A stretch of 64,000 bases of DNA from Fimbriimonadaceae bacterium (GTDB lineage Bacteria > Armatimonadota > Fimbriimonadia > Fimbriimonadales > Fimbriimonadaceae). The DNA is taken from the NCBI GenBank assembly GCA_019454125.1, contig CP075365.1, forward strand, positions 1,606,218 to 1,670,217. The letters are read 5' to 3'. The notes under the pieces were generated by a model. That model saw only the letters and a list, made by a program, of their open reading frames with translations, searched no databases and was not told the DNA's origin. Below, piece by piece: positions 50,349 to 51,348 of this stretch. The position numbers and the translations under genes were made by a program. The first letter of the stretch is position 1; the number at the start of each line of letters is the position of its first letter.

Positions 50349-50406
50349 AGATTCGTGCCGCCCTTTCCGCTTGACGGAAGGGGCGGCATGCTAGAATTAG
50401 TCGGAG

Positions 50407-51348
50407 ATGTTCGCCTTCACGCTCGCAATAGCCGGCCTGCTGGCGGGCCCGCCGACCCTATCGGAGCCGGTTCGGCTCCAGGCCGCGGGCAAGGACATCG
50501 TCGCCGGGAACGGCCACGCCGCCCCTTGGCTCCACGATTGGGACGGCGATGGGAAGCTCGACCTCCTGGTCGGGCAGTACGCCCACGGTCGCCTCATGGT
50601 CTATCGCAACATCGGCACGAACAAAGAGCCGCAGTACGCGAAGGGCAAGGCGTTCAAGCCGGAGGGCACGGGCGCAGAGATCAACTATGGGTGATGCGTC
50701 GGCTTTACTCCACAGGTTGTGGACGTAGACGGGGACGGAAAGCTTGACCTCGCCACTGGCGAGTTTGCCCCCGGCAACATAGTCTGGTTCAAGGGCCTCG
50801 GCAAAGCAAAGTTCGCCGATTGGAAGACCGTCCCGGAGACCCCCGATGAAAAGCAGGACTGGGCGGCCAGCACCGTTTTCTTCACGGACTGGGACGGCGA
50901 CGGAGACCTTGATATGGTCATCGGGGGCTATGGCGGCGACATCTATTACAACGAGAACGTCGGTTCACGACCGGAGCCGAAGTATGGCAAGCGCACCTGG
51001 CTCATGTCGGAAGGCAAGCCGATCCTGGTCGGCATGAAGAGCCAACCGGTCGTGGTCGACTGGGACGGAGACGGCCTGGCCGACCTCTTGACGGGGGACA
51101 ACGACGGCCTCGTTTTCTTCTTCCCGCGCCTTGCCGACGGCTCGCTGGGGCCGCGACAGCCGGTCCGGGTGGGAGGGGCCCCGCTCAAGATCGACCACCG
51201 AGTCAAGATCCACGTGGCGGATTGGAACGGCGACGGCGTCATGGACCTGCTCGTAGGGACCTGCGTCGAGAAGGAGCCCGTCATGAAGGGCGACTCCTAC
51301 GAGAACTACGACGGCTACGTCTACGTCTTGGTCGGCAAGCGGGGGTAG
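50407..51348 (+). CDS. VCBS/FG-GAP repeat protein with in-frame UGA: candidate selenoprotein
   Basis: A secreted protein of 313 residues if UGA at codon 96 (50692-50694) is read through. Before the UGA: a hydrophobic N-terminus (FAFTLAIAGLLAGPPTLSEP) and a first Asp-box repeat (HDWDGDGKLDLLVG). After it the frame continues with Cys (TGC), then VGFTPQVVDVDGDGKLDLAT, DWDGDGDLDMVIGG, DWDGDGLADLLTG and DWNGDGVMDLLVG. Without readthrough, the 95-residue product would hold one repeat, and the downstream four repeats would have no start with a ribosome-binding site. A hairpin with GGU loop sits 20 nt after the UGA. The alternative is a nonsense mutation. Function unknown; a Sec-Cys pair suggests redox. 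Confidence 0.72.
50702..50730 (+). promoter_or_regulatory. SECIS-like hairpin downstream of the in-frame UGA
   Basis: In the RNA, 50709-50714 (UCCACA) pairs with 50718-50723 (UGUGGA) under a 3-nt GGU loop. The stem extends with 50704-50708 to 50725-50729 across a bulged C at 50724, and 50702 to 50730 across a bulged C at 50703, giving 12 pairs (one G-U). The loop is 20 nt from the UGA, close to the well-known E. coli fdhF element, whose loop also carries GGU. Stem codons use ACT, CCA, GTT and GTA, uncommon in this GC-rich genome. Confidence 0.65.

Follow-up and report, generated by a model that had tools for sequence, protein, structure and literature searches.

The window analysed here, a 64,000-nucleotide stretch of a Fimbriimonadaceae genome, contains a reading frame interrupted by a single UGA, and the question raised by this locus is whether that codon ends the protein or is translated. 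The frame runs from an ATG at 50407 to a TAG ending at 51348 on the forward strand and encodes 313 amino acids with one internal TGA, at 50692-50694 (codon 96). The following codon is TGC and no other stop precedes the TAG, exactly as described in the original prediction, which had proposed a selenoprotein. Standard gene calling instead yields two ORFs (50407-50694 and 50719-51348). Judged by comparison with its relatives, the gene 50407-51348 almost certainly encodes a selenoprotein with selenocysteine (Sec) at codon 96. The gene and its upstream region comprise the following features:

50407 to 51348, forward strand: predicted selenoprotein gene for an FG-GAP/VCBS five-bladed propeller with Sec96-Cys97 (frame, Pfam, alignment, model and dN/dS)
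50692 to 50694, forward strand: UGA codon 96, predicted to be read as selenocysteine (UGA or Cys in the same column in relatives)
50695 to 50697, forward strand: Cys97 codon, the invariant partner of Sec96 (alignments A2 and A4)
50371 to 50397, forward strand: possible, weak sigma-70-like promoter TTGACG-15-TAGAAT (read from the sequence)

The protein obtained by reading through the UGA scores above the Pfam gathering thresholds for PF13517 (FG-GAP_3; 91.3 bits against a gathering score of 26.9, E 6e-26) and PF01839 (FG-GAP; 42.5 bits against 22.1), which places it by profile among the FG-GAP/VCBS propeller proteins. Four repeats do follow the UGA, as had been proposed, but they are DxDxDG calcium-loop repeats of the FG-GAP/VCBS type (PF13517) rather than Asp-boxes. 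The hydrophobic N-terminus of the 313-residue protein is probably a signal peptide. The promoter-like element and an inverted repeat both lie within 50355-50407, after the upstream gene and ahead of the start codon; with just 9 nt from the -10-like box to the ATG, the mRNA might have almost no leader. A search for conserved neighbour genes of the family found none.

Homologues were collected from 113 genomes of the order Fimbriimonadales (Armatimonadota) and from a search across 84,980 species genomes. Of 20 family members within the order, 18 carry a single TGA, located at the aligned column, and in the remaining two this position is TGT or TGC; in a 13-member alignment, Gly95-Sec/Cys96-Cys97 is invariant. 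UGA-Cys at the same column was found in 27 loci outside the order, belonging to Planctomycetota, Verrucomicrobiota, Fermentibacterota and Caldifarciminota (WOR-3), and a UGA copy is also present in an Armatimonadota family outside the order (G164). The class of one planctomycete member gave 14 matches, all with exactly one TGA, in 9 of 17 genomes with up to three each. A Cys-Cys form occurs in Rikenellaceae and Puia (Bacteroidota) and in two planctomycetes, one member each from Phycisphaerales and Pirellulales. In these relatives the codon-96 column is UGA or Cys rather than an unrelated residue, and by these alignments the gene belongs to a Sec-Cys family found in at least five phyla, wider than originally envisaged. 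In one Verrucomicrobia relative (L053:2976) the UGA is followed by Gly rather than Cys, and selA is undetectable in that genome; assembly error, contamination, an incomplete genome or decay are possible causes. A maximum-likelihood tree requires at least three changes of the Sec/Cys label, with the Cys copy L030 placed within a Sec clade and the Sec copy L058 sister to the Cys copy L064. No relatives were found in the viral collection.

Family members also differ in architecture. Longer members (e.g. L024, L025 and L028) have an insert of approximately 100 residues, probably helical, before the closing strand GFVWVYLRK; this insert is absent from the window protein. One Rikenellaceae contig (L059) has three tandem stretches coding for Cys-form members, one of which belongs to an ORF that carries DUF4369 at its N-terminus.

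The genome, a single contig of 2.65 Mb, encodes the full set of genes for selenocysteine decoding. Profile searches recovered selA (455.7 bits), selB (360.4 bits), tRNA-Sec (78 bits) and selD (333 bits, its two pieces together), each exceeding its curated cut-off; ARAGORN likewise identifies the tRNA as SeC, with a UCA anticodon. A lack of selA, selB and selC, which the original prediction had named as evidence against itself, is thus not what the genome holds. Its SelD is of the Sec type and is itself a selenoprotein, with an in-frame UGA in a GUASK motif (L009/L010, C1:887229-888206) that matches the UxxK motif described for Sec-type SelD (PMC13188914).

We then considered the RNA directly downstream of the UGA, where two further features lie:

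50704 to 50729, forward strand: bacterial SECIS-like hairpin of 11 pairs with a bulged C at 50724 and a core of 50709-50714 paired with 50718-50723 (RNAfold, relatives)
50715 to 50717, forward strand: GGU apical loop, 20 nt after the UGA (RNAfold; rule from PMC13188914)

The hairpin had been described as 12 pairs spanning 50702-50730; RNAfold gives the slightly smaller structure, while the bulged C, the GGU loop and the distance of 20 nt stand. Published rules for bacterial SECIS elements (PMC13188914) specify a loop of 3-9 nt, a stem of 4-16 bp, a G in the first two loop positions, a distance of 16-37 nt from the UGA and an MFE of at most -7.5 kcal/mol. The window hairpin has a 3-nt GGU loop, 11 pairs, a distance of 20 nt and an energy of -13.2 kcal/mol, within every one of these limits. 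An Rfam search with the hairpin gave no credible match. Its RNAfold energy does not differ from that of shuffled sequences beyond chance (z -0.6 to -1.7), and its significance derives from conservation with compensatory changes in relatives rather than from its own folding energy. Pairing in the six-pair core is 88.3% over 40 UGA copies, against 81.2% after column shuffling (uncorrected for relatedness) and no more than 53% when the register is slid (corrected for relatedness); the core covariation score is 0.225 against 0.091 in the shuffles, with 0 of 500 shuffles as high. Double-sided changes occur in three of the six core pairs, and the compensatory changes are synonymous. The silent base of a Pro codon tracks the codon with which it pairs (CCA with GTG in 24 of the 40 copies, CCG with GCG in 11, and CCC with GGG or GGA in 2), and this tracking is lost in the Cys copies. 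The four core pairs are complete in 38/40 UGA copies but in only 2/8 Cys copies, having decayed in the other six, and core stability is lower in most Cys copies than in UGA copies. The innermost core pair is broken in 19 of the 40. In several loci (L050, L054, L055 and the WOR-3 locus L086) the hairpin persists although its sequence differs, at the same position in L086. The original prediction had also pointed to unusual ACT, CCA, GTT and GTA codons; these do fall in the stem or loop, and all except GTT are identical in the nearest relative. Identity to this relative at third codon positions reaches 93% in the stretch of 14 codons from the UGA onward, compared with 53-54% elsewhere. Loss of the hairpin in relatives that keep the UGA did not occur: UGA copies retain it and most Cys copies lose it.

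The locus combines selABCD in the genome, an in-frame UGA with Sec/Cys exchange and a hairpin that follows the bacterial SECIS rules, features by which bacterial selenoproteins are recognized. None of the three outcomes set against the selenoprotein interpretation at the outset was observed, and the interpretation is supported. We predict that SelB with Sec-tRNA(UCA) binds the hairpin directly after the UGA and that this delivery places selenocysteine at codon 96, which would give a 313-residue exported five-bladed FG-GAP/VCBS propeller with Sec and Cys side by side in the loop that enters blade 2. An AlphaFold2 model of the window protein (pLDDT 91.7, pTM 0.90) is a five-bladed propeller, and predicted secondary structure puts Sec96-Cys97 on a long loop that precedes the inner strand of blade 2. 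No close solved structure was found by sequence. The best VIA-align matches are five-bladed GH62/GH43 propellers (Z 19.1, rmsd 3.5, 269 residues, 9% identity), and Foldseek TM values are at most 0.54 among the matches listed.

What the Sec-Cys pair does is suggested by domain fusions in relatives. A C-terminal DsbD_N domain scores above its Pfam gathering threshold in the Sec member L058 and the Cys member L063; the latter, a Bacteroidota Cys form (L063:4353-6755), is a three-part fusion of an N-terminal thioredoxin/redoxin domain, the propeller and DsbD-alpha. Such fusions are few, and by Pfam the window protein itself has neither a DsbD_N nor a thioredoxin domain. Because of the fusions to DsbD-alpha and thioredoxin we infer thiol/selenol redox activity in the cell envelope, and the redox site originally proposed for the Sec-Cys pair, still deduced indirectly, gains this backing. 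We speculate that the pair acts on a putative substrate as a reversible selenenylsulfide or selenol nucleophile and is recharged by a DsbD/TlpA-type thiol relay, a role that we consider about equally likely to be right or wrong. Its main rival is that the protein is a selenoprotein whose Sec-Cys pair binds a metal, metalloid or ligand rather than turning over thiols, for example in mercury or copper capture or as a sugar-binding propeller. Adjacent Cys-Sec motifs in the metal-related selenoproteins MbdU and MerB-like SaoL (PMC13188914) and the similarity of the fold to sugar-active five-bladed GH43/GH62 propellers speak for such binding, whereas the DsbD-alpha and thioredoxin fusions point to thiol exchange and the window protein has no GH43 or GH62 Pfam match; we regard binding as a serious possibility, though the less probable of the two roles.

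Two further readings concern decoding itself, and both are very improbable. If the UGA were a true stop, the locus would be a pseudogene or two genes, 50407-50694 and 50719-51348, as the output of standard gene calling would have it. However, several phyla share the UGA at a single column, where Cys is the sole common alternative, and the hairpin is conserved. A comparison with the nearest relative, at 60% identity, gives dN/dS values of 0.36 for the part ahead of the UGA and 0.34 for the part after it, which indicates purifying selection of similar strength on either side. UGA copies also co-occur with selA, which is above cut-off in 15/15 genomes of the order that carry them compared with 45/98 others (hypergeometric, approximately 3e-5, uncorrected for relatedness). 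Outside the order, selA is found in 28/28 genomes with UGA-Cys (27 above cut-off and one fragment) compared with 3/19 others, among genomes reached through loci. Conservation proves readthrough as such, which suppression or recoding could also achieve by inserting Trp or a different standard amino acid, but relatives substitute Cys rather than Trp, the members' genomes have Sec machinery, and the hairpin fits the rules for bacterial SECIS elements and is degraded in most Cys copies. Because of this conservation, the pseudogene, split-gene and Trp-readthrough readings were rejected. Readthrough, Sec/Cys exchange, conservation of the hairpin and the decoding machinery are shown by comparison.

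Within the sources searched, the propeller selenoprotein family is absent from selenoprotein catalogues. A 2026 review tabulates 119 prokaryotic selenoprotein families or subfamilies (PMC13188914, Table 1), and neither this table nor a 2022 table (PMC9312934) nor the new families reported with deep-Sep (PMC12013277) include one of FG-GAP, VCBS or propeller type. The window protein matches no NCBIfam selenoprotein model, and the literature search yielded no relevant paper on selenoproteins of FG-GAP or VCBS type or from Armatimonads. The supplement of PMC4807772 holds planctomycete selenoprotein candidates, which may include an unnamed earlier sighting of the family. The family places selenocysteine on a fold absent from the searched catalogue, in at least five phyla and with up to three copies per genome, in genes that standard gene calling splits at the UGA. 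It suggests that environmental bacteria carry out selenium-dependent redox reactions beyond the cytoplasm, and it is a concrete target for asking what Sec does on a propeller. The full proposal, to which we give roughly even weight, is of a large family of exported selenoproteins, missing from earlier catalogues, that display an adjacent Sec-Cys pair on a five-bladed propeller with calcium loops instead of on a thioredoxin fold; the pair would be a redox catalyst fed by DsbD/TlpA relays, and the family would help to maintain Sec decoding in Armatimonadota and planctomycetes.

Compared with catalogued bacterial selenoproteins (PMC13188914), the new family shares the UGA with a downstream SECIS hairpin, Sec/Cys exchange and selABCD genomes; most of those proteins, however, have a thioredoxin-like fold, and the propeller family is not in their table. 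The DsbD/TlpA envelope thiol-redox proteins are linked to it by the domains fused to L058 and L063, which the window protein lacks. GH43/GH62 glycosidases are the closest solved fold, also five-bladed propellers, but the resemblance is by fold only, with 9-11% identity to the window protein and no Pfam match to either family. With FG-GAP/VCBS proteins (PF13517 and PF01839; integrin alpha, PVL lectin and CRTAC1) the window protein shares the DxDxDG calcium-loop repeats and the propeller fold. The integrin alpha propeller has seven blades, whereas the window protein is modelled with five, and the new family is set apart by a Sec-Cys or Cys-Cys motif that is invariant between repeats 1 and 2.
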